Origin: Pyramidobacter sp. C12-8
Lineage (GTDB): Bacteria > Synergistota > Synergistia > Synergistales > Dethiosulfovibrionaceae
Assembly (NCBI RefSeq): GCF_002007215.1
Contig: NZ_MUHX01000031.1
Span: 1-35,084, forward strand
DNA: 35,084 nucleotides
Direction: 5' to 3'
Both the position numbers and the translations under genes were made by a program. Under the pieces are notes generated by a model. That model ran no database searches. It saw nothing but the letters and a program-made list of their open reading frames with translations, and was not told where the DNA came from. Each line of letters starts with the position of its first letter. Position 1 is the first letter of the stretch. Of this stretch, positions 2,398-34,512 are shown piece after piece.

Positions 2398-3165
2398 ATG
2401 CTTGAAAAATACAAAAAACACCAGTTCCTCTTTGAGGAACTGGTGAAGCGCGATTTCAAGAAAAAATACAAACGAACCGTTCTCGGAATGGGATGGAGCA
2501 TTCTTTCGCCGCTCGTGACCTTGCTGGTCATGCGGCTTGTCTTCACCCACTTTTTTGGACGCACCATGTCGCACTACACGACGTACCTTTTCTGCGGCAA
2601 CCTGGTTTTTGCCTATTTCAGCGAATCCACGTCGCAGGGCATGACCTCGCTCCTCGGCAACGCCGCGATTTTTACCAAGGTCAACGTCCCCAAGTATCTG
2701 TTTCTCCTCTCCAAAAACTGTCAGACCCTGATCAATTTTGGCCTGACTCTTGTCGTCTTCTTCATTTTTTGCCTGCTCGACCACATTGTCTTCACGTGGA
2801 AATTTGCCTTTCTCCTCTATCCCGTCGCGCTGCTGATGCTGTTCAACATCGGCATGGGCCTGGTGCTGTCGGCGCTGTACGTTTTTTTCCGCGACATTCA
2901 ATATCTGTGGTCCATTTTTTCCCAGCTGCTCATGTACATGTCCGCCATCTTTTACAGCATCGACAGCTTCAGCCCTGCGGCCCAGCGTGTTTTTCTGCTG
3001 AATCCGGTTTATCTGTTCATCCGCTATTTCCGCTCAATCGTCATCGACGCGGCGGTCCCCAACGCGGGCTTCCACCTTCTGATGGCTTTCGACGTCGCGG
3101 TCGTCGTTCTTTTCGGCTGTTGGATGTACCGCCGGTACAACACCGAATTCCTTTATTACGTATAA
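2398..3165 (+). CDS. wzm: ABC-2 type polysaccharide export permease (Wzm-like)
   Basis: This 255-residue integral membrane protein should form the channel of an ABC exporter that moves an undecaprenyl-linked glycan across the inner membrane. The N-terminus has the amphipathic lead and LVKRDFKKKYKRTVLG signature of the family, followed by about six hydrophobic segments. The C-terminal part FYSIDSFSPAAQ...LLNPVYLFIRYFRS is typical of Wzm/TagG proteins. The start is ATG 2398, with AAGGAG about 8 nt upstream. The ATPase partner follows 12 bp downstream. Wzm-type exporters imply that the glycan is completed in the cytoplasm before export, in line with the absence of Wzx/Wzy genes here. Confidence 0.88.
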   Translation: MLEKYKKHQFLFEELVKRDFKKKYKRTVLGMGWSILSPLVTLLVMRLVFTHFFGRTMSHYTTYLFCGNLVFAYFSESTSQGMTSLLGNAAIFTKVNVPKYLFLLSKNCQTLINFGLTLVVFFIFCLLDHIVFTWKFAFLLYPVALLMLFNIGMGLVLSALYVFFRDIQYLWSIFSQLLMYMSAIFYSIDSFSPAAQRVFLLNPVYLFIRYFRSIVIDAAVPNAGFHLLMAFDVAVVVLFGCWMYRRYNTEFLYYV

Positions 3166-3177
3166 CGGGTGATCGGC

Positions 3178-3927
3178 ATGTCAGTCATCGAATTGAACAA
3201 CGTCTCGATCCGTTACAAAGTGGGAGATTTCAAAGCGATCGGGCTCAAAGAGTACGTCATCCGCAAAATCAAGCGGAATTACCACGTTCAGGAGTTCTGG
3301 GCCGACCGGCATGTCACGTTTTCTCTGGAAAAGGGAGATATGCTCGGCATCATCGGCGCCAATGGAGCCGGAAAATCGACCTTGCTCAAAGCGATCGCCG
3401 GCATCATGACCCCGACCGAAGGCAGCGTCCAGTGTCAGGGGAACATCGCCGCGCTGCTGGAACTTGCCAGCGGCTTCGACGGCGAGCTGACCATCCGCGA
3501 AAACACCTACCTGCGCGGCGCCATGCTGGGATACACCCGCAAGTTCATGAACGAAAGATACGAAGAGATCGTCAACTTCGCGGAACTCGCCGATTTTCAG
3601 GACCGGCCCTTCAAGCAGCTTTCCTCGGGAATGAAATCGCGCCTTGCCTTTTCCATCGCCTCCCTCGTCAACCCCGACATCCTCATTCTCGACGAAGTGC
3701 TGTCCGTGGGCGACGGCGCGTTCCGCAAGCGCAGCGAAGAAAAAATGATGGAGATCATCCGCGGCGGCGCGACCACCATTCTGGTATCCCATTCGCTTGA
3801 GCAGGTTCGCGCCTTGTGCAACAAAGTGTTGTGGCTGCACAAGGGCCGGCAGGTCGAATTCGGGGACCGGGTAGACGACATCTGCACGCGCTATCAAGAT
3901 TTCCTCGATAAAAAAATTCAGTTATAG
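3178..3927 (+). CDS. wzt: Polysaccharide exporter ATPase (Wzt/TagH-like, short form)
   Basis: This 249-residue ABC ATPase powers the preceding permease. It has the Walker A motif GANGAGKST, the signature LSSGMKSRLAF, the Walker B motif ILILDE and the H-loop SHS. The N-terminal ISIRYKVGDFKAIGLKEYVIR-like extension before the first strand is typical of Wzt/TagH. I start it at ATG 3178, preceded by GGGTGAT; the GTG at 3169 is inside that site. The protein ends right after the nucleotide-binding domain, so it lacks the C-terminal glycan-recognition domain of Wzt proteins that read a capped non-reducing end. It is likely co-translated with the permease. Confidence 0.88.
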   Translation: MSVIELNNVSIRYKVGDFKAIGLKEYVIRKIKRNYHVQEFWADRHVTFSLEKGDMLGIIGANGAGKSTLLKAIAGIMTPTEGSVQCQGNIAALLELASGFDGELTIRENTYLRGAMLGYTRKFMNERYEEIVNFAELADFQDRPFKQLSSGMKSRLAFSIASLVNPDILILDEVLSVGDGAFRKRSEEKMMEIIRGGATTILVSHSLEQVRALCNKVLWLHKGRQVEFGDRVDDICTRYQDFLDKKIQL

Positions 3928-3997: not shown

Positions 3998-5017
3998 TCA
4001 GCGTTCCTCATACATCTTGGCATAGTAATTCCGATATTCGCCGCTGACGATGCGGCGCCACCATTCCGTGTGCGACAGATACCACCGCACGGTTTTACGG
4101 ATCCCCTCGTCGAACGTCGTTTCCGGCAGCCAGCCCAATTCCGCGTGGATCTTGGCCGGATCGATCGCGTAGCGCAGATCGTGCCCCGGGCGGTCGGTCA
4201 CGAAGCGGATCAGGCTTTCCGGCTTGTCAAGTTCTTTGAGGATCGTTTTCACAACCTGCAGATTCGTCCGCTCGTTATGGCCGCCGATGTTGTAAATCTC
4301 CCCTTCGCGCCCTCTGCGCACGATCAGGTCGATGGCGGCGCAATGATCCTCGACGTACAGCCAGTCGCGTACGTTCTCGCCTTTGCCGTACACGGGCAGC
4401 GGTTTGTCCGCCAAGGCGTTGGCGATCATCAGCGGGATCAGTTTCTCGGGAAACTGATACGGGCCGTAATTGTTAGAACAGCGCGAGATCGTGACCGGCA
4501 GTCCAAACGTGCGGCAGTAAGCAAGCACAAGCAGATCGGACGACGCCTTGGACGCCGAATAAGGGCTCGACGCATGCAGAGGCGTGTTTTCCGTAAAAAA
4601 CAGATCGGGACGGTCGAGCGGTAGATCGCCGTAGACCTCGTCGGTCGAAACCTGATGGAAGCGGGCGATCCCATATTTGCGGCACGCATCCATCAGCACT
4701 CCGGTTCCAAGCACGTTCGTGCGCAAAAACAATCCCGGGTCGAGGATCGAACGGTCGACGTGGCTTTCAGCGGCAAAGTTGACAACGACATCGGGCCGAT
4801 ATTTTTCGAACATCGCCTCAACCTGTCCGCGGTCGGCAATATCGCCCTTGACAAACGAAAAACGCGGATCGCCGGCGGCGCTCGCCAACGTTTCCATGTT
4901 GCCGGCGTAAGTCAGGGCGTCAAAACAGATGACCCGATCCTCGGGATATGTGCGCAGCAGATAATAGACGAAATTGGCGCCGATAAAACCGGCGCCGCCG
5001 GTGACAACGATCTTCAT
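3998..5017 (-). CDS. rfbB: dTDP-glucose 4,6-dehydratase
   Basis: This 339-residue short-chain dehydrogenase/reductase converts dTDP-glucose to dTDP-4-keto-6-deoxyglucose, using bound NAD. The Rossmann motif TGGAGFIG is at the N-terminus. The catalytic stretch STDEVYGD carries the Asp-Glu dyad typical of RfbB, and YSASK gives the Tyr/Lys pair. [18 protein letters not shown] and [10 protein letters not shown] are also family hallmarks. It lies downstream of rfbA with a 44-bp gap. Its product is the branch point for the 3-amino sugar made by the ketoisomerase and aminotransferase encoded at 16.1-17.6 kb. There are no rfbC or rfbD genes here, so rhamnose is not the implied end product. Confidence 0.95.
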
Positions 5018-5061: not shown

Positions 5062-5946
5062 TTACTTCCCGTAAATGAACTTTCCTTCGGCGACAGCCTT
5101 CAGGTGCGCGCCATAGGGCGACTTGCCGTAAAGTTTTGCCGATTCAAGGAGCTTCTCGCGCGCGATCCAGCCGTTGATATAAGCGATCTCCTCCACGGCG
5201 GAGATTTGCACACCCTGCGACCGCTCGACGACGCGCACGAATTCCGAAGCCTGCGACAGAGCCTCCACGGTGCCCGTGTCCAGCCAGGCGTAACCGCGCC
5301 CGAGCGTGACAACCTCGAGCTCGTCTTTTTCAAGATAGAGCCGGTTGAGGTCGGTGATCTCCAATTCGCCGCGCGGCGAAGGCTTCACCTGCTTCGCCAG
5401 CTCGCAGACGGATGCGTCGTAAAAATAGAGCCCGGTCACGCAGTAGTTCGACTTCGGGTACCGCGGTTTTTCTTCCAGAGAGATCGCTTTCCCCTGCGCG
5501 TCAAATTCCACCACGCCGAAACGCCAGGGATCGTCCACATAATATCCGAACACCGTGGCCCCTTCCGTCCGGGAAGCGGCAGTGCGCAAAAGCCGCCCCA
5601 AGCCGCTGCCATAGAAGATATTGTCCCCCAGGATCATGGCGCAGCCCTGTCCGCCGATAAACTTTTCGCCGATGATGAACGCTTGGGCAAGACCGTCGGG
5701 AGAAGGCTGAACGGCGTAGGACAGCGAGATGCCGAATGCCGAGCCGTCGCCGAGAAGACGTTCGAAGTTGGGCAGGTCCACGGGAGTGGAGATGATCAGG
5801 ATATCGCGGATGCCGGCCAGCATAAGCGTTGAAAGCGGATAATAGATCATCGGCTTGTCGTAGATCGGCAAAAGCTGCTTGGAAGTGACGCGGGTCAGCG
5901 GATACAGACGCGTGCCGGAACCTCCGGCCAGGATGATTCCTTTCAT
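5062..5946 (-). CDS. rfbA: Glucose-1-phosphate thymidylyltransferase
   Basis: This 294-residue enzyme makes dTDP-glucose from dTTP and glucose-1-phosphate. It begins [20 protein letters not shown], the classic nucleotide-binding loop. [38 protein letters not shown] and the [10 protein letters not shown] segment all follow the RmlA pattern. The start is ATG 5946, with AAGGAG 8-9 nt upstream. It is first of the two-gene leftward operon with rfbB. The 213-bp gap upstream is divergent with the next glycosyltransferase. Confidence 0.95.
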
Positions 5947-7237: not shown

Positions 7238-8374
7238 CTACAGCACTTCGCGGAGGATCGCCAGCGCGTCGTCCCGTGAAAACGCGACGGGATTGTTGTC
7301 CATCCTCCCGGCGGTAAAAGCGTGAGCGCACAGCATGTCAAGGTCGTCCGCCTTCACGCCGAACGAGGAAAGCCGCAGAGGGCGGAACTGCGCGCACACC
7401 TCGTTAAGCCACGCCTGCACCCCGCCGTAGGGGGCAAACAGCTCGAAGAGCTCCGCGTCGTCGGGAAAGTGTCCCGTGTTTCTCCGCGCCACGGCGCCCA
7501 GCGTCATGGCCGCAGCCACCCCGTGAGGGATATTGAAAAATATCGTCAGCGGGTACGAAAGCGAATGGCACGCCGTCGTCCGCGTCTGCGAGAAAGCCAA
7601 TCCCGCCAGTACCGACGCGCAGCAGAGCTTTTCGCGCAATTTTACGTTCTGCGGCTGCGCGAGCAACGGCTCGAGCGAGCCGAGGATCATTCCGATCGAC
7701 TGCGACGCCAGCGCCCGCACCAGCGGAGAAGTGCGTTTTGACCAGTAGGCTTCGACCGCATGCGATAGCGCGTCGACGCCCGTGCTCAAGGTGACCGCGG
7801 GCGAGAGCGTCAGCGTCAGTTCCGGCACGATGTACGCCGCCCTCGGCTTGAGCGCAGGCGCGTCGACCGAATACTTTTTCTTTTCGTCAAGGTTCCAGAT
7901 CGTCCCCCACTGCGTGAGTTCCGAGCCGGTCCCCGCAGTGGTCGGGACCGCGACGATCGGAAGAAGCGAATCGCGAAGGCGATAGCCATGCCGCCGAATG
8001 CCTTCGACGATCCGCGTTTCGTCAGGGACCGATTCAGGGTCGTAAAAAGCGCTGACGCCCTTGGCAAGGTCGATGATGCTGCCGCCGCCAAGAGCGACGA
8101 TGCAGTCGATCGGCTCGCCGGCAAACTTCAGCAGCGCCTCGCGGATATCCTTCGGCGTCGGATTGGCCACCGCCGCGGTTACAAAGCGCACAGCAGCGCG
8201 CTTCCGCATCGCTTCGATCAACGGTTGCAGCCCCCAGCGCTCCAACGCCGACGGGCTTGACAAAAAAAGAATATGCGAACAGGGAAGAGCCGAAAGCCTG
8301 TCTTTCAGCTCTTCCTTGTCCATAAACGCCACGGCGGCGCTGCACAGCGGATCGAAAAGAGCCTGTTCAGCCAT
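7238..8374 (-). CDS. Phosphonoacetaldehyde reductase (iron-type alcohol dehydrogenase)
   Basis: This 378-residue family III (Fe-type) alcohol dehydrogenase is predicted to reduce phosphonoacetaldehyde to 2-hydroxyethylphosphonate. It shows the cofactor loop VALGGGSIIDLAKG, VPTTAGTGSE, the metal ligands in STGVDALSHAVEAY and NIPHGVAAAM, and the late motif GRMDNNPVAFS. The substrate assignment rests on context: it is last in an operon after PEP mutase and phosphonopyruvate decarboxylase, as in known phosphonate clusters. ATG 8374 lies 12 bp after the pepM stop without a strong ribosome binding site, so coupling is likely. No 2-aminoethylphosphonate transaminase is present, which favours the hydroxy product. 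Confidence 0.82.
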   Translation of the reverse strand: MAEQALFDPLCSAAVAFMDKEELKDRLSALPCSHILFLSSPSALERWGLQPLIEAMRKRAAVRFVTAAVANPTPKDIREALLKFAGEPIDCIVALGGGSIIDLAKGVSAFYDPESVPDETRIVEGIRRHGYRLRDSLLPIVAVPTTAGTGSELTQWGTIWNLDEKKKYSVDAPALKPRAAYIVPELTLTLSPAVTLSTGVDALSHAVEAYWSKRTSPLVRALASQSIGMILGSLEPLLAQPQNVKLREKLCCASVLAGLAFSQTRTTACHSLSYPLTIFFNIPHGVAAAMTLGAVARRNTGHFPDDAELFELFAPYGGVQAWLNEVCAQFRPLRLSSFGVKADDLDMLCAHAFTAGRMDNNPVAFSRDDALAILREVL

Positions 8375-8386
8375 TTTCGCGCGCGA

Positions 8387-9682
8387 TCACTGTTGCGGGA
8401 TCAGCGTCAGGATCTCCTTGATGGAGATGCAGTTGTCGTCCACTTCCTTGCAGCGGTGCGCTTCAAGAATCATCTCGGCCGTTTTCTGCATGGCTTTGAA
8501 ACTGCTGCGGATCAGGTGATTAGCGTAGATGACGATATTGACGCCGCGTTTGGCAAACTCCTCTTCCGTAACGGCGTTGAAGGAAGTCGGGACGACGATC
8601 AAAGGCGTCGTTGCATCTTTCTCGCGGAACTTGGCGCAGAACTCGAAGATCTCGGCGGGATCTTTTTTGCGCGAGTGGATCATAATGCCGTCGGCGCCGG
8701 CGGCGACGAAGGCAAAAGCTCTCCGCAGGGCGTCTTCCATGCCCTGTTCGAGGATCAGACTCTCGATCCTGGCGATGATCATGAAGTCCTTGGTCCGCAG
8801 AGCCTTTTTGCCGGCGGCGATTTTGGCGCTGAAGTTCTCGATGCTGTCCTGCGTCTGTTTGACTTCAGTGCCGAAAAGCGAATTTTTCTTCAACCCCACT
8901 TTATCCTCGATGATGATCGCCGAAACGCCCATGCGCTCAAGCGTGCGCACGTTGTAGACGAAATGTTCCGTCTTGCCGCCGGTATCGCCGTCGAGGATGA
9001 TCGGCTTGGTCGTCACTTCCATGATCTCGTCGATCGTCTGCAGGCGCGAGGTCATATCGACCAGTTCGATATCCGGCTTGCCCTTGGCGGTCGAATCGCA
9101 GAGGCTGGACACCCACATCGCGTCAAACTGGCGCGCCTGTCCGTTTTCGACCACGCACGTTTTCTCGACGATCAGCCCCGTGATGCCGTTATGCGCTTCG
9201 AGAACCGAAACGGTTTTTTTGATGGCAAGCAGTTTTTTCAGGCGGCTGCGGCGCACATCAGGCAGCGAGAGCATCTCGCGCGCATTCGAATCCAGAAGCT
9301 TGTGACTTTCGCTGTCGGAATAGGGATATTCGACCAGCTCTCCGCCGTACTCCTTCAGCAGAGCGACGACCTCGTCGCGAATCGGTTTCTGAGCTCCCTT
9401 CACCCAGTCGTCGCCGTGGACGACGTAATCGGGACGCAGTGTGCGGATGTTCTCGGCATAGCTCAGCGAATCCTGTGGAACGACTTCGCTGACGCCTTTC
9501 AGGTTCTCGATGATCGACTTGCGCTCCTCATAAGGCAGCAGCGGATAACGGCGATAACTGGCGACCGCCGTGTCGGTAAGCACGCCGGCGACGACGCGCC
9601 CCAGCTGAGCCGCTTTCTCTACGATCCTGATGTGACCGCCGTGAATGACATCGGTGCCAAAACAAATATAAACGCTTTTCAT
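8387..9682 (-). CDS. pepM: Cytidylyltransferase-PEP mutase fusion
   Basis: This 431-residue two-domain enzyme starts the phosphonate pathway. Residues 1-135 are a nucleotidyltransferase of the HxGH type: CFGTDVIHGGH, with YVVHGDDW further on. Residues 140-431 are PEP mutase, which rearranges PEP to phosphonopyruvate; the diagnostic motif EDKVGLKKNS is intact, and LDGDTGG and IARIESL are also present. The mutase motif separates it from isocitrate-lyase relatives such as methylisocitrate lyase. The start is ATG 9682 with GGAG 8 nt upstream. The nucleotidyltransferase half suggests that the phosphonate end product is activated with CMP. It lies between the separate cytidylyltransferase gene and the reductase gene. 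Confidence 0.92.
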   Translation of the reverse strand: MKSVYICFGTDVIHGGHIRIVEKAAQLGRVVAGVLTDTAVASYRRYPLLPYEERKSIIENLKGVSEVVPQDSLSYAENIRTLRPDYVVHGDDWVKGAQKPIRDEVVALLKEYGGELVEYPYSDSESHKLLDSNAREMLSLPDVRRSRLKKLLAIKKTVSVLEAHNGITGLIVEKTCVVENGQARQFDAMWVSSLCDSTAKGKPDIELVDMTSRLQTIDEIMEVTTKPIILDGDTGGKTEHFVYNVRTLERMGVSAIIIEDKVGLKKNSLFGTEVKQTQDSIENFSAKIAAGKKALRTKDFMIIARIESLILEQGMEDALRRAFAFVAAGADGIMIHSRKKDPAEIFEFCAKFREKDATTPLIVVPTSFNAVTEEEFAKRGVNIVIYANHLIRSSFKAMQKTAEMILEAHRCKEVDDNCISIKEILTLIPQQ

Positions 9683-9700: not shown

Positions 9701-10420
9701 TCATTCCTTTGGCAGATCCGCCATCTTGCTGCGGATCATAATAAGATCTCGTTCGTCGTCGATCTCACGGCAGAGATCGTCTTTGACGTCCAACGGCTTC
9801 AGCTCCAGCTCCGGCAGGACTTCGTTCAGGGCGGCTTCCGCATAGCATGCTCTCCGGCCGCTCTCGCAGAAAACAATGATGTTTTCAAGCCAGCGGCGCC
9901 AGCCGTCCCGCGACAGACGATACAGAGGCTGCGCCGTCAGAGCGCTGTCAAAAAATTCAACGCCCACCTTGAGGATGCGCCCGCCTTGAACGACGGCCTT
10001 GAAGTCTTTCTGCGGAAGCGGCGCCGTCGAACTGACGGTCATGCAGTCGCACGCACCGTTCAACACAGCCGCCAAAACGGCATCGGAAAACACCAGATCG
10101 CCGTGCATGAGGACGATCTCGTCGTCGAGAAGAGAGCGCGCCTGATAAATCGAATAAATATAGTTGGTCTGCTCGTACTCGGGATTATGTACGAAGTTCA
10201 GCTTCAGCGGCAGTTTCTGTTCCCGGCAATGGGATCGCAGCAGCCCCTCGAACGGCCCCGTGGTTATGACCGCCTCCCCGATTCCCAATGCGGCGAGCTG
10301 ACGGAGCTGACGGCCGATGATCGTCTCGTCGCCCAGTAAAGGCGTCATGCATTTGGGATGATCCTTGACCAGCGCCCCCATGCGCTTGCCGATCCCGGAA
10401 TTCAGTATCAACGCTTTCAT
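9701..10420 (-). CDS. Nucleotidyltransferase, LicC/PntC-like (phosphonate cytidylyltransferase)
   Basis: This 239-residue NTP-transferase-fold enzyme has the N-terminal loop LNSGIGKRMGALVKDHPKCM and then TPLLGDETIIGRQL. HNPEYEQTNYIYSIYQAR and VLMHGDLVFSD resemble phosphocholine cytidylyltransferase (LicC) and the 2-aminoethylphosphonate cytidylyltransferase PntC. In this operon the likely reaction is CTP plus 2-hydroxyethylphosphonate giving a CMP-phosphonate, ready for transfer to a glycan. The substrate is inferred from the neighbours. It starts 5 bp after the decarboxylase stop, with only a weak ribosome binding site, which suggests translational coupling. A kinase or sugar nucleotidyltransferase role is less likely. 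Confidence 0.78.
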   Translation of the reverse strand: MKALILNSGIGKRMGALVKDHPKCMTPLLGDETIIGRQLRQLAALGIGEAVITTGPFEGLLRSHCREQKLPLKLNFVHNPEYEQTNYIYSIYQARSLLDDEIVLMHGDLVFSDAVLAAVLNGACDCMTVSSTAPLPQKDFKAVVQGGRILKVGVEFFDSALTAQPLYRLSRDGWRRWLENIIVFCESGRRACYAEAALNEVLPELELKPLDVKDDLCREIDDERDLIMIRSKMADLPKE

Positions 10421-10425
10421 CTTCG

Positions 10426-11556
10426 CTACCGCAGTTCCTTCAAATATTCCATAAAGCTGTCTCGGTTTTCCATGGCGCTGGTCGTAGGGCGGCCGAGATC
10501 GGCGCGCGAACCGATCGCCGTCTTGGTCTCGATGAACGTAAGCGCGCCGGCGTCTTTCGCTTCCTTGAGACTCTCGTCAAGTTCTTCAAGCGCGCTCACG
10601 ACTTTGATATTACCGTAGCCGCAGGCCCTAGCGACATCGGCAAGGCGGGCATGATTTGCGACCGTCGGCAGGCCGCCGACGCTCTCGTGCGCGCCGTTGT
10701 TGATCACGATATGCACGAGATTGCGGGGATGCTGCGAACCGATCACAGCCAGCGCCCCCATGTGCATCAGCGCGGCGCCGTCGCCGTCGATGCACCAGAC
10801 TTTGGTATGCGGCTTGCTCAAAGCGATCCCCAGAGCGATGGAAGAGCTGTGCCCCATCGAACCGACCGTGAGAAAATCGTACTTGTGCGGCTGTCCGTTC
10901 TGGACGCGGATTTCGAACAGTTCGCGCGACGCTTTGCCCGTCGTGGAAACGATCGGATCTTCGCCGGAAACCGCGGTGACATGACGGATCACTTCTTCGC
11001 GCGTCATCGTGAAATCGTTTTTGAAAGAAACTTTTTCGTCATAAGTCAAGGCTTCTTTGGCGACGACAAACGCCACGCTCTTCCCGGCGGCAAGGAGCGG
11101 CTGAAACTCCGCCGTTTTTACCGCAAGCTCCTGCTCCGTCGTGTCTTTGCGCACGACAAAAGAGGCGACGTCCATGACTTTCAGAAGATCCAGAGTGACC
11201 GCGCCTTGAAAAACATGCTGCGGCTCGTCCTTGAGCCCCGGCTCCCCGCGCCAGCCGATCACGAAAACGCAGGGGATCCCGTACACCCGGTCGTTCAGAA
11301 GCGAAGCGATCGGATTGACGACGTTGCCCAAACCGCTGTTCTGCATGTAAACGACCGGCACCTTGCCCGTCGCCAGATAATACCCCGCCGCCAGAGCGGT
11401 ACAGTTGCCTTCGTTCGCGGCGATGATATGGTCCGGCGAGATGCCGCAGTTTTTGTAGAGATAGTTGCACAGCGCTTTCAGCTGCGAATCGGGGACCCCG
11501 ACAAAATGGGATGCGCCAACTCTTTTAAGCTGCTCGATAAACACTGAGACCTGCAT
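10426..11556 (-). CDS. ppd: Phosphonopyruvate decarboxylase
   Basis: This 376-residue thiamine-diphosphate enzyme decarboxylates phosphonopyruvate to phosphonoacetaldehyde, the step that pulls the unfavourable PEP mutase reaction forward. The N-terminal half reads HFVGVPDSQLKALCNYL, then AANEGNCTALAAGYYLATG with the catalytic Glu, and MQNSGLGN. The cofactor motif GDGAALMHMG...NN is in the C-terminal half. Family members are about 375 residues. The start is ATG 11556, with GAGGAG 7 nt upstream; the reading could extend upstream to 11610 but that would run through this site. It follows the glycosyltransferase gene by 40 bp and opens the four-gene phosphonate block. Confidence 0.93.
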   Translation of the reverse strand: MQVSVFIEQLKRVGASHFVGVPDSQLKALCNYLYKNCGISPDHIIAANEGNCTALAAGYYLATGKVPVVYMQNSGLGNVVNPIASLLNDRVYGIPCVFVIGWRGEPGLKDEPQHVFQGAVTLDLLKVMDVASFVVRKDTTEQELAVKTAEFQPLLAAGKSVAFVVAKEALTYDEKVSFKNDFTMTREEVIRHVTAVSGEDPIVSTTGKASRELFEIRVQNGQPHKYDFLTVGSMGHSSSIALGIALSKPHTKVWCIDGDGAALMHMGALAVIGSQHPRNLVHIVINNGAHESVGGLPTVANHARLADVARACGYGNIKVVSALEELDESLKEAKDAGALTFIETKTAIGSRADLGRPTTSAMENRDSFMEYLKELR

Positions 11557-11596
11557 AGAGACACTCCTCGACACATTGATATATGATATACAATTC

Positions 11597-12778
11597 TTAA
11601 CCTTTGCCATGCAGACGGCCCAAAAGCATTACGCCGCGCATCACAGCGAGACAGGCGATACCTGCTCCGATCCCCCATAACAGCAACTTTTCCAGCAACT
11701 CTTTCAGGAGCTTGGAATCGACACTCAGCAAAAACAACGCTGAAAGCATCGCGAAAACAGCGATAAAAATGCTCTTTATCGGCATTTTAGACAAATCAGC
11801 GCCCATTTTTTGATACGAAAATCGCGTCAACGAACGCAACAACTCAAAAAAGAAGCTAGGACGCTGTGCCAGAAATTTAAGCAGCGGCAACAGCGACAGC
11901 TTTTTGATCCACAACAGGCGCGCCTTGACAAGCGAATCCTGCTCCCATTGCAGCCGCTTATGGAAAGCTTTCTTGTCTTCAGGAAAAAGCTCATCAAGAT
12001 ACGGTTCGACTTCCTGTTTAAACATCAGCCGCTTGTCTTTGCTGAACTGTTCGATGATATCAATCGAGTAATCGCCGCCGTTGTTGGCGATGCCGCCCTG
12101 AGCGTGCAGTACCGTACATTTGTTCATGAAGACAGGGGTAATGCCCCGCCGCGCCATACGCTGAAACGTGTGCATGTCTTCAGCGTATTTATACGCCGTG
12201 TCGTAGGCTGATACTTTCTGCTCGAAGCCGCGTTTATAACACGAAGAAAGAGAAATCAGAAGACATCGATGCGAGAGCCGGCTAAAGAGCAGCTTGGGGT
12301 CACGCGATAAAATGTCGAACTTATCCTGGTTAGTAATGTGATATCCTTTGACGTTCAATTCGGCGTCAGTGCGCGCACACTGGGCACACAGCAGCCACGG
12401 ATCATAATGATACATCTTCATCATGAACATGTAATCGGAAATAACAGAGCCGTAAGCAAGTACGTCGTCAGCACCGAGATTGATATAGTAATCGCCCGTA
12501 TATATTGCCAGCGCTTTGCGCAGATTTTTTACCGTACCGAGGTTCTTCGGCGACGTTAAAATCTGTACGTTTTTGATATTATCACGCTTATGCGCATCGA
12601 TATAGTCGCGTAACTCTTTAACGGCAGTAGCGTCAAAATGCTCCGAGCCGTCGTCCGTGATGATAAGCTCGATTGCCTCGTAATCCTGCGCCAATATGGA
12701 GTCTAAACAGCGCGTCATGTACTGGCTGTTTTGGTAACTCAAAACAATCACGCTGACCAAAGGGTATTGAGAGTTCAT
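11597..12778 (-). CDS. Family 2 glycosyltransferase with C-terminal membrane anchor
   Basis: This 393-residue protein has an intact GT2 domain (residues 1-290) followed by two hydrophobic segments near residues 330-380. The GT motifs are VSVIVLSYQNSQYM, ITDDGSEHFD, LGADDVLAYG and YAEDMHTFQRMARRG. The membrane segments include SIFIAVFAMLSALFLLSV, so it should sit on the inner face of the cytoplasmic membrane. The start is ATG 12778, with GGAGGTG upstream. It is closely similar in layout to the GT2-like protein at 14316-15584 and the GT2 at 6160-7116. It is translated between the TagF-like gene (13-bp gap) and the decarboxylase. Confidence 0.88.
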   Translation of the reverse strand: MNSQYPLVSVIVLSYQNSQYMTRCLDSILAQDYEAIELIITDDGSEHFDATAVKELRDYIDAHKRDNIKNVQILTSPKNLGTVKNLRKALAIYTGDYYINLGADDVLAYGSVISDYMFMMKMYHYDPWLLCAQCARTDAELNVKGYHITNQDKFDILSRDPKLLFSRLSHRCLLISLSSCYKRGFEQKVSAYDTAYKYAEDMHTFQRMARRGITPVFMNKCTVLHAQGGIANNGGDYSIDIIEQFSKDKRLMFKQEVEPYLDELFPEDKKAFHKRLQWEQDSLVKARLLWIKKLSLLPLLKFLAQRPSFFFELLRSLTRFSYQKMGADLSKMPIKSIFIAVFAMLSALFLLSVDSKLLKELLEKLLLWGIGAGIACLAVMRGVMLLGRLHGKG

Positions 12779-12791
12779 CTCCACACCTCCG

Positions 12792-14297
12792 TCAGTTTTT
12801 GTTCTGCAGGGAAACAAAAAGCTCTTCTGCGCGTCGCTGCAGGTCGATATCCATTTCTTTCAGCACATAATCGCAGATGCGTTCGCTTATGTGCCCATCA
12901 GAATCGCCTAACACACTGCTGAAGGCTTGAACAGAACGCTCGCTCATCTCTGCTGTCCGGTTCGTGCGTACCGCTTCCAAAAAGTCCAGAACGTCTTCAG
13001 GAACAGTCGCTTCAGGAATGCCATTCAGATACTCTTCATGCGAAACACGTTCGCCGCCAGGTTTTGACGTATAAATCACAGGATTGCCAGAAGCGCGATA
13101 TTCAAGCAAGAACGTCGTCGCGTCGCTGATCATCGCCGTTGAAACGCTAAAAGCATCAAGATAATCCGGTCGTTTATCGACGATGATGTTCTCGTAACGG
13201 GCGATATCGTTCATCGTCTCGTTAAACTCATTGACGACCTCTTGACTCTGCTTCATGATACGCTGCCAGAAAATCGGGTGCGGACGCCATAGCAGCACGA
13301 TGTCGTTATGGCGCTTAAAGTAGTCAAATACCACGTCTTTATACAAAAAGTATGTTCCGACGCCGACATTCTCTTCTATGCTGAAGTGCGTGTTCCAGAG
13401 CACAGCCGGCCTGCCTTTAACGACATCAGACCAATAATTATATGCTCGGGCCTGCGCGGCATTATATGCGATATCAAACTTGGGATGCCCCAACGTAACG
13501 ACATTTTCAGCATCTCTGTAGCCATACTGAGCGTGCATTTTTTTGTAGATATCACTATAGCCAATGATGCGCCAGAAATGATAAAACGGCGGCAGCTGAT
13601 AGAAGTATTTAATCAGCTCCGCGCCTCCTTGCGTATCGAGGCAGTACGGAATATACACCGTGTAGGGAGTGTGCTTCTCGACATCGTTGACCTGGAAATA
13701 GGGCATGTTGCCGCGACAGTAATACGGCTTCATGTAGAAGACGATATCGGGCGACTCTGTGGCGATGTTGTACTCATACATCGAATATGCTTCAACGCCG
13801 GCGTCTCTGTATTCAGCCAGCATACGGCGGTAAAATTCTGTATCGTAAAACACCTCCCCGAAATGGACGTTGATCGAATAACTTACAATCACCTGCACCT
13901 CAACGTTCGGCATCACTGAAAAACGCTCGTACACCGGTTTGAACGAAGGCCAACAAGAATATTCATGCGTCAAGAACGCGGCCTTGACTTTGCTTTCTTC
14001 ACCTTTCAGGCCGGCTGTTTTTTCCGCGACGTACTCCTGCAAAACAGCGACGCTGTCGTAAGTATTGTAGCCGATAACGTCGATCAATTCGCGCAGGGCG
14101 CATAAAAGATCGATATTACTCTCTGATGCGGGACGCGTACGCGGCGAGTACTTCATGCCTTCGCACTTTTTCTGCAAAGCGTCGGCATAATGCTTTATAT
14201 CTTCCTTCATCAAGGTAAGGACCGAGGGAGACGCCGCAGCATGATCGCCGATGATAGCGTAGAGATTCATCAAAAAAGTTTTGTCTGAGTAATTCAT
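12792..14297 (-). CDS. CDP-alditol phosphotransferase family protein (TagF-like); candidate phosphonate transferase
   Basis: This 501-residue protein's C-terminal half matches the CDP-glycerol glycerophosphotransferase (TagF/TagB) fold: LGHPKFD, VLWNTHFSIEENVG, LLWRPHP with the catalytic-type His, and the SDATTFLLEYRASGNPVIY segment. That family transfers an alditol phosphate from a CDP-alditol to a glycan or lipid. No CDP-glycerol synthase gene is present here, but CMP-activated hydroxyethylphosphonate is predicted from the downstream genes. I infer that this is the enzyme that moves the phosphonate onto the glycan; an ordinary glycerol- or ribitol-phosphate transferase is the alternative. 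The start is ATG 14297, with GGGAGGA 8 nt upstream. Residues 1-190 look like a family-typical glycosyltransferase-B N-terminal domain. Confidence 0.75.
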   Translation of the reverse strand: MNYSDKTFLMNLYAIIGDHAAASPSVLTLMKEDIKHYADALQKKCEGMKYSPRTRPASESNIDLLCALRELIDVIGYNTYDSVAVLQEYVAEKTAGLKGEESKVKAAFLTHEYSCWPSFKPVYERFSVMPNVEVQVIVSYSINVHFGEVFYDTEFYRRMLAEYRDAGVEAYSMYEYNIATESPDIVFYMKPYYCRGNMPYFQVNDVEKHTPYTVYIPYCLDTQGGAELIKYFYQLPPFYHFWRIIGYSDIYKKMHAQYGYRDAENVVTLGHPKFDIAYNAAQARAYNYWSDVVKGRPAVLWNTHFSIEENVGVGTYFLYKDVVFDYFKRHNDIVLLWRPHPIFWQRIMKQSQEVVNEFNETMNDIARYENIIVDKRPDYLDAFSVSTAMISDATTFLLEYRASGNPVIYTSKPGGERVSHEEYLNGIPEATVPEDVLDFLEAVRTNRTAEMSERSVQAFSSVLGDSDGHISERICDYVLKEMDIDLQRRAEELFVSLQNKN

Positions 14298-14315: not shown

Positions 14316-15584
14316 TTATTTTCTCTTGCCGGCGATGTAGGAGTGCATATAGTACAGCTTGACACCCACGTTCAGGAGAAGCTTGAGCAGAGAGACGCCG
14401 CACTCAATAATTCCCAGCAGCAACAGAAAGGAAGATAGGACCGGGGGCACGTCCGTATACCTGTCGAAAAGCCAGGCAAAAACAAGGAACGGGATTCCCC
14501 GCAGCAGGCTTGTAAAAATCTCCCGCTTCAAAGAAAAGCGAATAATCGCGTCTTTATTGTTTTTCGCAAAGAGAAGAAGTTTCTTTGTGAGCTGACGAAA
14601 GCTTACCATACGCAGATTTGATTTTTTCCGATGCGAAGGATTGTTCAGCGCAGCACCGGAACTCGCGTCTTCACTGCCGCATGACGCGTCAGCGTCTGAG
14701 TCTAAACCGACGGCGGCTGTTCTATACCGGGCGGCGACGCGTCCGGCGAGCGCATAGGCGTCAGACGAAAAAAAGGCACGATAGGGCCTGACTTCGCGTT
14801 CAAAGATCCCTCTGACGTCGTTTTCGCACGCATTCACAGCGGCGTCAGCGATAAATTCGTCTCTTGCATCTTCAATTTGTCTCCTTCTCGCAGAGACATT
14901 TTCCAAAAAGAAAGGACGAACATTCATCCTGAGTGCCCGAAGCTGCAACGGCCAGGCTGCCAGTCGGGAATATCCCTGCAAGGAACCGAGCCTGCCGAAC
15001 AGTGTCCGTTTATACATGCAGCCGACAATGGGCAGAATAACTCCGGAAACGGCTTTATCGCGCAAGGCTGCGACGTCGCCGCGTCGGAGCAGTTCCGCAA
15101 TATCGGCGTCCATCGACAGACGGCCGCGTTTCAGTTTTTCATTGTACATTTCAACTTGCGCAACGATCCACTCCGGCTCGTCGTCATGAGTATTCACAAA
15201 GGTCATCATGTCGGCGAAAACGCATGAGTACTTCCATACGTCATCTGAGGTGATAAAAAGCTCATATTCGCCAGCGCATATTGCGTGAACTTTTTTCAAG
15301 CACGCAATAACGCCGGAATTCTCTTTGTTCTCGGTAATCACAACGCGCTTGATGTTATTGCCGCGGTGCTTAGTAACGTAGTCGATAATTTCGTCCGCGG
15401 GGAAGTCCCCGCCAAGGCGCATACTGCCAACAATCAGCTCTATGTTGGGATAGGTCTGCGTCAGCACGGAGTGCAACGCGTCAAAAATGTATTCGCTGGA
15501 ACCATAGTCAAAAACGATAGCGCTAAGCAAAGGCGCTTGCTGATAGTCGTTCTTGTAGGGTTCGGGCAAAGGCATGTCTGACAT
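14316..15584 (-). CDS. GT2-like membrane protein lacking catalytic motifs (pseudo-glycosyltransferase)
   Basis: This 422-residue paralogue of the neighbouring GT2 has the same N-terminal fold and two C-terminal hydrophobic stretches (LLRGIPFLVFAWLF; VLSSFLLLLGIIECGVSLLKL). Where its paralogues read DDGS it has VGSMRLGG, and where they have the catalytic ED it has SRLAAWPLQ. Only ITSDDVW of the metal motif remains. It is probably inactive or has a different role, for example as a scaffold. I start it at ATG 15584, 10 nt after AGGGAG. A GTG at 15593 overlaps the stop of the acyltransferase and allows coupling. An 11-bp poly-C run (in coding sense) lies just upstream. Confidence 0.78.
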   Translation of the reverse strand: MSDMPLPEPYKNDYQQAPLLSAIVFDYGSSEYIFDALHSVLTQTYPNIELIVGSMRLGGDFPADEIIDYVTKHRGNNIKRVVITENKENSGVIACLKKVHAICAGEYELFITSDDVWKYSCVFADMMTFVNTHDDEPEWIVAQVEMYNEKLKRGRLSMDADIAELLRRGDVAALRDKAVSGVILPIVGCMYKRTLFGRLGSLQGYSRLAAWPLQLRALRMNVRPFFLENVSARRRQIEDARDEFIADAAVNACENDVRGIFEREVRPYRAFFSSDAYALAGRVAARYRTAAVGLDSDADASCGSEDASSGAALNNPSHRKKSNLRMVSFRQLTKKLLLFAKNNKDAIIRFSLKREIFTSLLRGIPFLVFAWLFDRYTDVPPVLSSFLLLLGIIECGVSLLKLLLNVGVKLYYMHSYIAGKRK

Positions 15585-15589
15585 TAAGT

Positions 15590-16075
15590 TCACACTCCCT
15601 GGGGGGGGGGGACTTTAGTTTCGACCTCTCGCCCAGGGTTGCCGACGATGACAGCATGAGCCGGCACGGACTTGGTCACGACCGCCCCCGCGCCGATCAT
15701 CGCGCCTTCGCCGATTTCGATACCCGGCAGGATCGTCGCGTTGGCGCCGATGGAACAGCCTTTTCGCAGAACGGTATGAAGCAGTTTCCAGTTTTCGTTG
15801 CGGCTTTTGGGGTACATGTCGTTGGTCAGCGTCGCGTTAGGGCCGATAAAAACGTTGTCTTCAACGGTAATTCCGTCCCACACCTGCACGCCGCATTTGA
15901 TCGTGACGTTGTCGCCGATGACGACTTCATTCTCCACGAAGACGCCGTCGCAGATGTTGCAGTTTTTGCCGATCCGCGCGCCGGGCAGGATGTGCGCGAA
16001 CGCCCAGATGCGCGTGCCTTCTCCGACGTTTATCGATTCGCAGAGTGCCTGAGGATGGATAAAAACGTCTTCCAT
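15590..16075 (-). CDS. Hexapeptide-repeat sugar N-acyltransferase (FdtC/WbpD-like)
   Basis: This 161-residue left-handed beta-helix enzyme is predicted to acetylate the 3-amino group of a dTDP-3-amino-3,6-dideoxyhexose. Hexapeptide repeats run through most of it: [50 protein letters not shown], then [20 protein letters not shown] and VVGNPG-like closing residues. The conserved [11 protein letters not shown] part is typical of FdtC/QdtC/WbpD enzymes. The start is ATG 16075 with GGAGAGGG upstream, overlapping the end of the aminotransferase. Its last codons, VPPPQGV, are encoded by an 11-base C run, so a one-base slip changes the C-terminus or fuses it to the next gene. Confidence 0.87.
15601..15611. 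repeat. Poly-G tract of 11, candidate phase-variation switch
   Basis: Eleven G on the plus strand are read as C in the operon. With 11 C the acyltransferase ends VPPPQGV at a TGA that overlaps a GTG of the next gene. With 12 C it reads through in frame into the GT2-like gene. With 10 C it continues about 26 codons in the third frame to a TAG. The tract also lies just before the AGGGAG ribosome binding site of the next gene. Confidence 0.7.
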
Positions 16076-16077
16076 GA

Positions 16078-17184
16078 TTACCCTCTCCATTCGTTCAGCG
16101 TCCTGACAACGTATCCTGCGTCGCCGAGGGACATGCCGTTGAAAAAGGGCAGACTGAGGACCGAATCGGCATCCTTTTCCGCCAGGGGGAAGCTGCCTCC
16201 GCCGTACCCTAAACCGCGATAGGCTTCCGACAGGTGCGGCGGGATCGGATAATGGATCAGCGTATCGATCATTTTGCCCTCGAGGTACGCGCGCAGTTCG
16301 TCGCGTTTGGGACAGGTCACGACGTACTGGTGCCACACGTGTTCCGCGCCGAAAGCGATCCGCGGCAGGCCGATCGATGGATGCGTGATGCCGTCGTTAT
16401 AAACTGTGGCAAGTTCTTTCCGTTCCGCCGTCAGTTCGTTCAGGTGAGAAAGCTTGACGCGCAGCAGCGCTGCCTGGATCTCGTCAAGGCGGGAATTCAC
16501 GCCCTGCACTTTGTTATAATACTTTTTCTCGCTGCCATAGTTGCGGTACAGCCGCACTTTGGCGGCGAGCGACTCGTCGTCGGTGACGACGGCTCCGCCG
16601 TCGCCGAAGCCGCCCAGGTTCTTTGTAGGATAAAAGCTGAAGCAGGAAATGGCACCGAAAGTCCCGGTCATCTTTCCGCCGAACGCCGCGCCATGGCTTT
16701 GAGCGCAGTCCTCAATGACGGGCAGGCGATGCTTGGCGGCTATCTTCATGATTTTGTCCATCCGGCACGGCTGGCCGTACAGGTGAACAACGAGGATCGC
16801 CTTGGTACGAGGGGTGATCGCTGCTTCAATCTTGTCGGGGTCGATGTTGTGATATTCGTCGGGCTCTACGAAGGCTGGCGTCGCGCCGTTCTCGGTGATT
16901 CCCAAGACTGTGGCGATGTACGTATTGGCCGGCACGATCACTTCGTCGCCTTTGCCGATTCCAAGCGCTCTCACGGCAAGCAGCAGAGCGTCCAATCCAG
17001 AATTCAGTCCGACGCACCAGCGCGCGCCGAGGTATGAGGCGAATTCTCGTTCGAAAGCTTCCACTTCATGCCCAAGCACGTACCAGCCGGAATCGAGGAC
17101 GCGCGCGGCCGCAGCGACATATTCGTCTCGGTATCTGTCAAAGCCGGGTTTCAAAGCGTTGCAGGGGATCGCGTTGTTCAACAT
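16078..17184 (-). CDS. dTDP-sugar 3-aminotransferase (DegT/FdtB/QdtB-like)
   Basis: This 368-residue DegT/DnrJ/EryC1 family PLP enzyme is predicted to aminate the 3-keto group of dTDP-3-keto-6-deoxyhexose, using glutamate. Its motifs are [20 protein letters not shown] for the cofactor phosphate, [11 protein letters not shown], and [17 protein letters not shown] with the PLP lysine. [11 protein letters not shown] is also typical. I start it at ATG 17184, with AAGGAG 8 nt upstream; an upstream extension to 17283 would cover the ketoisomerase end. The gap to the ketoisomerase stop is 4 bp and the acyltransferase overlaps its end. These three genes in this order match the Fuc3NAc/Qui3NAc pathway. 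Confidence 0.92.
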
Positions 17185-17188
17185 GCGT

Positions 17189-17596
17189 TCAACTCCTTCT
17201 TTTGCCGTATTCAATGAATTCGTCATAGTCGCGGATATAGTCAGCTTCATCATAATGTTCGGACGCCAGGACAAGAAGAACACTGTCGTCCTGCAGCCAC
17301 TTCATCGTCCGCCACATGCCGGGGCCGACGAACAAACCGTTGCCGGGATCGTCCAGCACCGTCGTCCGCACGCCGCTTTTTCCGTCGTCCAACGAAATTT
17401 CAATCTTGCCGTAAACGCAGATCAAAACCTGCTTCAACGTTTTATGCGCATGAGCTCCCCGCTGGACGCCGTTTCGAGCTCCATAAATGTAGTATACTCT
17501 TTTTATATCGAAAGGCACGGATTCCGACGCCGCTTCGGCGACGCTCAGCGTGCCGTTTTTCGGATCGGCTGATTTATGTTCGCGCATCTTTAGCAT
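17189..17596 (-). CDS. dTDP-4-keto-6-deoxyglucose 3,4-ketoisomerase (FdtA/QdtA-like)
   Basis: This 135-residue cupin of the FdtA/WxcM-like family shifts the keto group from C4 to C3, producing the substrate of the aminotransferase. Motifs are [11 protein letters not shown], then [22 protein letters not shown] with the paired His of the active site, and [32 protein letters not shown] in two parts. Whether the product has galacto (FdtA) or gluco (QdtA) configuration cannot be settled by eye. The start is ATG 17596, preceded by AAAGGAG; an overlapping GTG further upstream is less likely. It opens the ten-gene leftward operon. It works with RfbA and RfbB, encoded in a separate operon. Confidence 0.9.
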
Positions 17597-17797
17597 AGCA
17601 ACGACCACTCCTTTGCACTGTTCTCGTTCCCTCCTTTTGTCCTATGCTCCGCTCCAAACATTGAGCGCTCGTTCTTGATTAATCGAACGTTATCAGATCC
17701 GAGAGCCTTCGTCATGCTCCGTACACTGCAAGAACACGATGCCCAGAGTAATATGGTCTTTCCTTGGCGCACAGACTTCTTTTTACTTCAACTGGCC

Positions 17798-17826: not shown

Positions 17827-17968
17827 CAATCATCTCAACATCTCATGCGCTTGTTATCTCTACGGCTGTCACGGACTTCGCGAATCCTGCAGAGTATAGC
17901 ACAGATGCGCAACTTTGTCCTTCATGTCGATATGGAAGGCAGGATCATCTCTCACTGGAGGCATAACG

Positions 17969-18127
17969 ATGAACGTTTTACTCACCGGCGGGGCCGGTTT
18001 TATCGGGTCGCACACGGCGGTCGAACTGATCGCGGCGAGGCACGGCGTGGTGATCGCCGACGATCCGAGCAACAGTTCGGCTTCGGTGATCGAGCGGGTG
18101 AATGACGCCGGACGTGGGAGACAATAA
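17969..18127 (+). pseudogene. galE: galE 5' fragment
   Basis: The first 43 or so codons match the full galE genes at 22305 and 25336 almost exactly: [15 protein letters not shown], then VVIADDPSNSSASVIER. After about 18095 the match stops and the frame runs on for about ten unrelated residues to a stop. A good ribosome binding site (GGAGG) remains. Only the start of the NAD-binding fold is left, so no enzyme can be made. It marks the left edge of the galE-anchored array. Confidence 0.85.
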
Positions 18128-22193: not shown

Positions 22194-22304
22194 CGAAAAA
22201 AAGCAACAGCCGTCGCGTAATTGTTTCAGTGTATAATTTTGTATTGGAAGTCAGAGTTCGCGTGATGCGTGGCGGCTGACAACTTTTTATTGGAGGGAAG
22301 GACC

Positions 22305-23309
22305 ATGAACGTTTTACTCACCGGCGGGGCCGGTTTTATCGGGTCGCATACGGCGGTCGAACTGATCGCGGCGGGGCACGGCGTGGTGATCGCCGACGAT
22401 CTGAGCAACAGCTCGGCTTCGGTAATCGAGCGGCTGGAACGGATCACGGGCGTGCGCGTGCCGTTTTACCAAATCGACGTGGCCGACACGGCGGCGCTGG
22501 AACGTCTTTTTGCGGAGCGTCATATCGACGCGGTGATCCACTTCGCGGGGTTGAAAGCGGTGGGCGAATCGGTGGCCAAGCCGCTGCTCTATTACCGCAA
22601 CAATCTGGACACGACGCTGGCGCTGCTGGAAGTGATGGCGGCGCACGGCTGCAGGCGCTTCATCTTCAGCTCGTCGGCCACGGTGTACGGGATGACGAAC
22701 TCCGTTCCGTTCACGGAGGAGACGCCGGCCGGCGGCTGCACGAATCCCTACGGCTGGACGAAGTTCATGATCGAGCAGATCCTGCGCGACGCGGCCGCCG
22801 CGGACGCGGAGGTGTCGGCGGTGCTGCTGCGTTACTTCAACCCGATCGGCGCGCACGAGTCGGGGCTGATCGGCGAGCAGCCGCAGGGGATCCCCAACAA
22901 TCTGATGCCGTATCTGTGCCAGGTGGCGGCGGGCAAGCTGCCGCAGCTGCGCGTTTTCGGCGACGACTACCCCACGCCCGACGGCACGGGGGTGCGCGAC
23001 TACATCCACGTGGTCGATCTCGCCAAAGGGCATGCGTCGGCGCTGGCTTACGCCGCCTCGCACCAAGGGGCCGAGGTATTCAATCTCGGCACGGGGCGCG
23101 GCAGCAGCGTGATGGATCTGATCCGTTCGTTCGAACGGGTCAACGGCATTAAAATCCCCTACGCGATCGCGCCGCGCCGCGCCGGCGACATCGCCGCGTG
23201 CTGGGCCGACGCCTCGAAAGCCGAGCGCCTGCTGGGCTGGAAAGCGCGGAAATCGCTCGACGACATGTGCCGCGATTCCTGGAACTGGACGAAGAAGTCG
23301 CTGCTGTAG
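22305..23309 (+). CDS. galE: UDP-glucose 4-epimerase, copy 1 (intact)
   Basis: This 334-residue enzyme interconverts UDP-glucose and UDP-galactose. The NAD-binding motif [10 protein letters not shown] is intact. SSSATVYG, then YGWTKFMIEQ (the Tyr/Lys catalytic pair) and LRYFNPIGAH are the usual GalE landmarks. The start is ATG 22305, with GGAGGGAAGG upstream. A TATAAT lies at 22232-22237 in a stretch, TTCAGTGTATAATTTT, shared with galE copy 2. From 22324 to 23304 I see no base difference from copy 2, so recent duplication or gene conversion is likely. It can supply UDP-galactose for glycan synthesis and is the better candidate for the working copy. Confidence 0.95.
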   Translation: MNVLLTGGAGFIGSHTAVELIAAGHGVVIADDLSNSSASVIERLERITGVRVPFYQIDVADTAALERLFAERHIDAVIHFAGLKAVGESVAKPLLYYRNNLDTTLALLEVMAAHGCRRFIFSSSATVYGMTNSVPFTEETPAGGCTNPYGWTKFMIEQILRDAAAADAEVSAVLLRYFNPIGAHESGLIGEQPQGIPNNLMPYLCQVAAGKLPQLRVFGDDYPTPDGTGVRDYIHVVDLAKGHASALAYAASHQGAEVFNLGTGRGSSVMDLIRSFERVNGIKIPYAIAPRRAGDIAACWADASKAERLLGWKARKSLDDMCRDSWNWTKKSLL

Positions 23310-25122: not shown

Positions 25123-25335
25123 ACGCATTAAAAAAGACCTTGGCCAAGCTGTTGGCAAAAGAAGGATCTCGGGCAGTACTGCACCATGAAAGCGCCTTCG
25201 AGCAAAACCGAAAAGAACGCCGCGAGCTTTTCTCAGCGTCAGTAAAAAATAACTGATTCAGTGTATAATTTTCTCACAGAAGCAAGAGTTCACATTGTGC
25301 GCTACAGCTGACGCTTTCTCAGGGAAGAAAACACC

Positions 25336-33908: not shown

Positions 33909-33948
33909 AAGCGGCGAACCTCGCTTCACTCGAGGCTCGCCGCTTTTT
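33909..33948 (+). terminator. Terminator shared by sulfatase and toxin genes
   Basis: AAGCGGCGA-A-CCTCG and CGAGG-C-TCGCCGCTT pair around a short loop, and TTTTT follows. Its end overlaps the stop codon of the leftward toxin gene. Confidence 0.8.
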
Positions 33949-34462
33949 ATCCGTCTGTGTTTTGAGTGACCCACAACTGGCATTTGTGTTCCAACAAGAG
34001 GAAATCGCAGCTGTTGGCCACAAGTCCGGGATTCTTGCCCAACAGCACTCGTTTGTAAGTGCGCTCGGCAAGATACTGGATCCTTTCCTGATTTTTGATA
34101 CAGAACCTCAATTCCTGCGCAAGCAGGGCACGATAAGCTCGATCGGGTTCGTCGTCTATGGAACGGAGCGAGAGTGCGCTTTTGGGAACAGGAAACATAT
34201 AATTAAACCGAAGCGAAGCGACAATCTGACCATTGTCAGCCTGAATGAGGAAGTTATCGGGCTTTTGCTGTTTAAAAGAAGTCACAGGCACGTAATAGTT
34301 CATTTCACGCACCTGAAGCACAACGCCGCATAAAAATTTTCTCTTTCGACTTACTCCATAATCCATGTTAGGGACGCGGCTTACGCCCCTCTTTTCTATC
34401 TCTGCATTTTTCAAATAGTTGGTATAAGCAAAGTCCACGTAGTAAAAATTGAGTTTTTCCAT
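33947..34462 (-). CDS. toxN: Type III toxin-antitoxin endoribonuclease, ToxN/AbiQ family
   Basis: This 171-residue protein matches ToxN/AbiQ in length and layout: LNFYYVDFAYTNYLKNAE at the N-terminus, RKRKFLCGVVLQVREMNYYVPVTSFK in the middle of the fold, SLRFNYMFPVPKSAL, then YRALLAQELRFCIKNQERI and LAERTYKRVL near the end. ToxN cuts RNA and is held inactive by the repeat RNA ToxI. I start it at ATG 34462; an extension to 34522 would run through the upstream terminator. The short GAGG before it suggests modest translation. Upstream on the same strand are a terminator, three 37-bp repeats and a promoter, the standard layout. Such modules act in phage defence and plasmid or island upkeep. Confidence 0.85.
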   Translation of the reverse strand: MEKLNFYYVDFAYTNYLKNAEIEKRGVSRVPNMDYGVSRKRKFLCGVVLQVREMNYYVPVTSFKQQKPDNFLIQADNGQIVASLRFNYMFPVPKSALSLRSIDDEPDRAYRALLAQELRFCIKNQERIQYLAERTYKRVLLGKNPGLVANSCDFLLLEHKCQLWVTQNTDG

Positions 34463-34486
34463 CAATGCGGGCCTCAAAGTCAGAGA

Positions 34487-34512
34487 TAAAAAGAGAGGGG
34501 CCACAGCCCCTC
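34487..34512 (-). terminator. Attenuating terminator between antitoxin RNA and toxN
   Basis: On the minus strand GAGGGGC and GCCCCTC pair with a 4-nt loop and are followed by TCTTTTT. In type III systems a leaky terminator here sets the excess of antitoxin RNA over toxin mRNA. Confidence 0.8.

Follow-up and report, generated by a model that had tools for sequence, protein, structure and literature searches.

A TagF-like protein as a candidate phosphonyltransferase in a surface-polysaccharide locus of Pyramidobacter sp. C12-8

In C. jejuni, the MeOPN transferases Cj1421/Cj1422 modify hydroxyls of capsule sugars with a small phosphoryl group other than an alditol phosphate, much as is proposed here for a TagF-like enzyme; the two are likened by function and not by sequence, and Cj1421/Cj1422 move a phosphoramidate, whereas the enzyme described here is predicted to move a phosphonate. 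To our knowledge, no enzyme has been shown to attach a phosphonate (2-hydroxyethylphosphonate, HEP) to a cell-surface sugar. HEP esters occur on marine polysaccharides (PMC5649143). A nucleotidyltransferase gene is present in two-thirds of phosphonate gene clusters and its product presumably turns the phosphonate into an activated CMP conjugate, and the tailoring after phosphonate activation, or transfer onto glycans, has been called enigmatic (PMC6697681). The pnt clusters with PntC and LicD-like transferases (PMC6697681) share with the locus analysed here PepM and cytidylyltransferase (CyT) modules, Ppd and glycan genes; this locus, however, has a HEP route through an alcohol dehydrogenase (ADH) instead of an AEP transaminase, and a TagF-like instead of a LicD-like transferase.

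The locus lies in the window, the whole 35,084-nucleotide stretch of DNA that was analysed (assembly GCF_002007215.1, contig NZ_MUHX01000031.1). From 17608 down to 7238, genes for FdtA, a DegT aminotransferase, a hexapeptide acetyltransferase, GT2, the TagF-like protein, GT2, Ppd, a PntC-like protein, CyT-PepM and an iron-containing ADH (Fe-ADH) follow one another on the same strand. The features were as follows.

2398 to 3927, plus strand: Wzm/Wzt-type polysaccharide ABC exporter (permease 2398-3165, ATPase 3169-3927), conserved in genomes G135, G001 and G003
3998 to 5017, minus strand: RmlB-like dTDP-glucose dehydratase (sequence reading, compared across loci)
5062 to 5946, minus strand: RmlA-like glucose-1-P thymidylyltransferase (sequence reading, compared across loci)
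7238 to 8374, minus strand: Fe-ADH, predicted phosphonoacetaldehyde reductase giving HEP (best NCBIfam match TIGR03405, 236.7 bits, below the cut-off of 423.7)
8387 to 9682, minus strand: cytidylyltransferase (PF01467, HGGH) fused to phosphoenolpyruvate mutase, CyT-PepM (TIGR02320, 422 bits against a cut-off of 319.6)
9701 to 10420, minus strand: PntC-like MobA-type nucleotidyltransferase (PF12804; 54% to the N-terminal domain of the S. copri triple fusion)
10426 to 11610, minus strand: phosphonopyruvate decarboxylase, Ppd (TIGR03297, 458.7 bits against a cut-off of 312.5)
11597 to 12817, minus strand: GT2 glycosyltransferase, overlapping the 3′ end of the TagF-like gene
12792 to 14297, minus strand: TagF-like transferase gene (PF04464 superfamily, Tyr clade), candidate phosphonyltransferase (501 aa, ATG start)
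13278 to 13280, minus strand: His340 codon (RPHP), equivalent of the second essential TagF His (H584) by hhalign and joint alignment
13644 to 13646, minus strand: Tyr218 codon; the joint alignment pairs this residue with H444 of S. epidermidis TagF, the base His of the HG motif
14316 to 15593, minus strand: GT2 glycosyltransferase, upstream of the TagF-like gene
15590 to 16168, minus strand: hexapeptide acetyltransferase (sugar N-acetyltransferase-like)
16078 to 17283, minus strand: DegT-type sugar aminotransferase
17189 to 17608, minus strand: FdtA-type dTDP-ketosugar isomerase (PF05523, 150.8 bits)

The TagF-like reading frame is intact on the minus strand, and the plus strand at this place is broken by stops. 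An earlier sequence-only reading had proposed a TagF-like gene here and two cytidylyltransferase modules among phosphonate genes, and both were confirmed: the gene is real, its relationship to PF04464 being established through an orthologue and profiles, and the modules are CyT-PepM and the PntC-like protein, accompanied by Ppd and Fe-ADH. The PepM motif EDKxxxxxNS is present as EDKVGLKKNS at residue 259, and the Fe-ADH showed 30% identity to an S. copri protein annotated as phosphonoacetaldehyde reductase. A third GT2 gene is found at 6160, and no LicD, sulfatase or CDP-alcohol transferase was detected among the window genes scanned.

Some other features of the window were also recorded. A run of 11 G at 15601-15611, the only such run in the window (about 0.03 expected) and absent from G003, falls at the acetyltransferase gene's 3′ terminus, directly ahead of the start of the upstream GT2, and is a possible phase-variation tract. 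Near-identical galE-like copies at 22283-23309 and 25314-26340, with a third fragment at 17950-18100, flank SLFN_AlbA_2 genes, and a ToxN-type toxin of a type III toxin-antitoxin system (PF13958, 124 bits) is encoded at 33947-34522. The contig ends (1-365 and 34720-35084) form a perfect 365-nt inverted repeat, probably because the assembly broke off at a repeated element.

A scan of genome contigs returned one locus. In a second species of the genus (G003), a 74% orthologue (L002) of the TagF-like protein was found in the same gene order from DegT to Fe-ADH; synonymous change between the two genes far exceeded amino-acid change (dN/dS about 0.07, with dS near saturation). Between these loci, identity was 96% for CyT-PepM, 89% for Fe-ADH, 87% for Ppd and 86% for PntC, whereas it was 74% for the TagF-like transferase and 64% and 44% for its flanking GT2s. 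Better conservation of the donor-making enzymes than of the transferase and the GT2s is what would be expected if the donor were constant and the acceptor glycan variable. In a genome of the same species (G135), the flanks of the locus were kept, namely GT2 (100%), Wzm (98%) and Wzt (94%), and AAA (97%) and cyclase (100%); other sugar genes filled the middle, and neither pepM nor a TagF-like gene was among them. At the same Wzm/Wzt site, the sister species G001 carried a TagD over the cut-off and two canonical TagF-like genes. With its flanks kept around another middle in G135 and TagD/TagF-like genes at the site in G001, the locus is thus a serotype-type cassette within a polysaccharide region of the ABC-transporter kind, and glycerol-phosphate and HEP chemistry appear to be alternatives at this site.

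We then determined the relation of the protein to TagF. By hmmscan, the window protein itself gave no PF04464 match, and its G003 orthologue scored 26-27 bits, above the curated cut-off of 22.1. Comparison of the clade with canonical PF04464 members by hhalign gave 98.7% (E 4e-16), the alignment covering the donor-binding half, and among PDB sequences the 11-row clade profile matched TarL best (8va1, E 1e-13). These comparisons place the protein as a remote member of the PF04464 superfamily, homologous over the donor-binding half to TagF, TarL and TarF and to Gram-negative capsule polymerases (Cps3D, Cps7D, Bcs3 CroT). It shares with them the G-x-P-x-x-D motif, the RPHP His (His340, for the second essential His, H584), the SD motif and a surface-polymer locus, and CMP is the predicted leaving group, as in those enzymes. 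Unlike them, it is a single domain with no polymerase fusion and has Tyr218 in place of the HG-motif base His. In the joint alignment this column (H444 of TagF, H96 of CroT) held Tyr in all nine clade rows and His in all canonical rows; the Tyr clade had a support of 97/98 in the tree. Both His residues are reported to be required in TagF-like enzymes (PMC5974469, PMC10299916). With the base His aligned to Tyr218, the protein is not a TagF sensu stricto, and TagF chemistry is not simply transferable to it. A structure predicted from four rows had a pLDDT of 46.7 with the N-domain unresolved, and its Foldseek matches were generic GT-B folds including TarL and TagF; it was set aside as evidence, being too poor for reading the active site.

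The neighbours of Tyr-clade relatives were informative about the kind of donor. One relative (L078) adjoins a D-ribitol-5-P cytidylyltransferase (over the cut-off), another (L006) a G3P-cytidylyltransferase-like gene and a third (L074) an IspD-like gene, while L003 is located among phosphoramidate-type genes similar to the C. jejuni MeOPN system. In G011 (L075, 8980-16004), the Tyr-clade gene stands beside an NTP transferase, a gamma-glutamyl-CDP-amidate-hydrolase-like protein and a CyT-PPDK fusion (glutamine-kinase-like PRK05849, over the cut-off), a set reminiscent of the Campylobacter phosphoramidate route, here outside Campylobacter. No cytidylyltransferase neighbour was seen for a Bacteroidales gene (L008, contig cut just upstream) or for the prophage/phage copies L077 and L120. 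The cytidylyltransferases beside Tyr-clade genes support a cytidylyl-conjugate donor in the clade. The two phage-type copies, on a Rahnella plasmid (L077, 7578-9146) and a viral contig (L120, 3843-5411), adjoin phage tail genes and are possible lysogenic-conversion surface modifiers; when viral sequences were scanned with the focal family, at most one phage homologue came up per scan.

The chief competing explanation is an ordinary GT-B glycosyltransferase of O-antigen or capsule assembly, using for example the dTDP-acetamidodideoxyhexose of the operon, with HEP attached by something else. The GT-B-like fold class of the poor model, weak NCBIfam similarity of the window protein to the BFO_1060 family glycosyltransferase and TIGR04396, the missing base His and a sugar donor made by the same operon are consistent with it. 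We nevertheless consider it unlikely, since the PDB sequence closest to the clade profile is that of TarL, a polyol-phosphate polymerase, the gene is flanked by two GT2s and a third is at 6160, clade relatives adjoin cytidylyltransferases, and no LicD, sulfatase or CDP-alcohol transferase turned up among the window genes scanned.

We favour phosphonyl transfer onto a sugar hydroxyl as the probable function of the TagF-like enzyme, and the donor, acceptor and chemistry that we infer for it are these. PepM, Ppd and Fe-ADH would convert PEP to HEP, and a cytidylyltransferase would convert HEP to CMP-HEP. The TagF-like protein would act as a GT-B-type cytidylyl-conjugate:hydroxyl phosphoryltransferase of the PF04464 superfamily, in which a sugar hydroxyl of the growing surface polysaccharide would attack the phosphonyl P of CMP-HEP and CMP would depart, presumably while still inside the cytoplasm and prior to export; the catalytic base may be Tyr218 or some other residue. 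The repeat unit, decorated with a HEP monoester, would then be exported by the Wzm/Wzt-type ABC transporter. The acceptor could perhaps be a 3-acetamido-3,6-dideoxyhexose, suggested by RmlA, RmlB, FdtA, DegT and the acetyltransferase, or conceivably a sugar added by the flanking GT2s.

The choice of HEP follows from PepM, Ppd and the likely reductase Fe-ADH together with the lack of any AEP transaminase (TIGR03301) above the cut-off in the genome, a draft about 99% complete. The CyT domain of Fom1, likewise fused to Ppm, makes CMP-HEP (PMC6697681), and by this analogy CMP-HEP is the predicted donor. It is very unlikely that the enzyme instead uses another CMP-phosphonate, for instance that of AEP or of a phosphonate with additional modifications, whose activation would fall to the PntC-like protein. 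The two different cytidylyltransferase modules and the preference of characterised PntCs for AEP (PMC6697681) would agree with such a donor; against it are the missing transaminase, the presence of the ADH and an identical set of PntC, CyT, PepM, Ppd and ADH in S. copri.

Glycerol- or ribitol-phosphate transfer from a CDP-alditol, as by TagF/TarL with an incidental pepM neighbourhood, is likewise very unlikely. It has in its favour the function of the superfamily, the ribitol-5-P or G3P-type cytidylyltransferases beside clade relatives and the CDP-glycerol system at the same site in G001. However, the absence of CDP-glycerol and CDP-ribitol genes, as first read from the window, extends to the whole genome: no TagD (TIGR01518) exceeded the cut-off, the best TagD-like match being the CyT domain of the PepM fusion (45 bits), and an IspD-family profile search, with one strong and one weak match, revealed no spare TarI. 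The remaining PF01467 genes were CoaD, NadD, HldE (from sequence reading) and a weak match in a 346-aa frame, probably RibF. Thus, unlike TagF/TarL-type systems, the genome has no CDP-alditol synthesis, and the predicted donor is a CMP-phosphonate. A CMP-nonulosonate transferase was rejected, as the window has no NeuB pathway; the sole NeuB match was weak (37 bits, model positions 61-237) and in a 381-aa frame that is probably a related aldolase-type synthase.

To place the locus in a wider context, pepM and PF04464 genes were surveyed in the class. Among 183 genomes, 17 had pepM and 27 had PF04464, and in four of them a PF04464-type gene was separated from pepM by no more than a few kb: G000, G003, G161 (CyT-PepM, Ppd, PF04464, radical SAM/SPASM/CyT) and G073 (CyT-PepM, ADH, PF04464); the G073 neighbour may be an older TagF-like/sulfatase pair. 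Four PF04464 genes (three independent) thus lie no more than 10 kb from pepM against 0.12 expected by random placement, with Poisson P values of 7e-6 for four and 2e-4 for three independent cases, the significance of which is overstated because this null ignores the clustering of polysaccharide genes. A plasmid locus of Segatella copri DSM 18205 (L076, capsule) resembles the window in having PntC, CyT, PepM, Ppd, a phosphonoacetaldehyde reductase and then a PF04464 gene in a polysaccharide locus, with O-antigen polymerase and flippase. It differs in its fused PntC-CyT-PepM, in Wzx/Wzy instead of Wzm/Wzt, and in a transferase of the canonical His type (WHGNP), annotated as 'CDP-glycerol glycerophosphotransferase'. 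L101, a contig classified as viral, has a PF04464 gene (68 bits) that ends where CyT-PepM starts. The pepM-linked PF04464 genes fall in at least four places in the tree, so that recruitment looks repeated and not confined to one subfamily. Within the Tyr clade, pepM linkage was seen in the window lineage only; the enrichment near pepM by which the sequence-only reading had proposed to check its idea for the subfamily is therefore found for the PF04464 superfamily and not for the Tyr subfamily.

Other pepM clusters have other candidate transferases, namely a LicD-like neighbour in G178, which has the ADH route, and sulfatase-fold genes on viral contigs. A rule that HEP uses TagF and AEP uses LicD was dropped, since G178 combines the ADH route with the LicD-like neighbour. 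In most viral contigs, what lies upstream of CyT-PepM is not a TagF-like gene (hhalign 0.1%). These IMG/VR contigs (L094-L114, classed as viral) carry CyT-PepM, a split Ppd and Fe-ADH; some (L096, L097 and L108) have a gene that by eye resembles a methylphosphonate synthase relative, and others have a sulfatase-like gene upstream. In 11 genomes of the genus g5 with pepM, no candidate transferase was linked; their conserved loci (L059-L069: nitroreductase, PntC-CyT-PepM, in some a radical SAM/SPASM-CyT fusion, Fe-ADH and Ppd, with no glycan transferase) are candidates for a small-molecule phosphonate pathway. Among open-licence papers, none was found that connects phosphonate, PEP mutase and glycerophosphotransferase.

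Taken together, transfer of HEP to a sugar hydroxyl, as originally suggested for this protein, gains from the CMP-phosphonate operon conserved with the gene in G003, the lack of a CDP-alditol supply, superfamily membership, recurrence near pepM and the cytidylyltransferases of the clade. It is weakened by Tyr in place of the base His, by a window protein below Pfam detection, by a single pepM-linked lineage in the Tyr clade and by an ADH below its NCBIfam cut-off. Since HEP, in contrast to AEP, retains a free hydroxyl, it is also conceivable, though in our view rather improbable, that the enzyme and the flanking glycosyltransferases make HEP part of the polymer backbone, either bridging sugars (sugar-phosphonate-sugar) or forming a poly-HEP chain; the product would resemble teichoic acid but contain C-P bonds. 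The recurrent TagF-type candidate makes the phosphonate-to-glycan step directly testable and ties teichoic-acid chemistry to phosphonoglycans. TagF-type phosphonyl transfer could account for the HEP esters on polysaccharides, and the Tyr clade of TagF relatives without the base His may transfer varied CMP- or CDP-activated groups.
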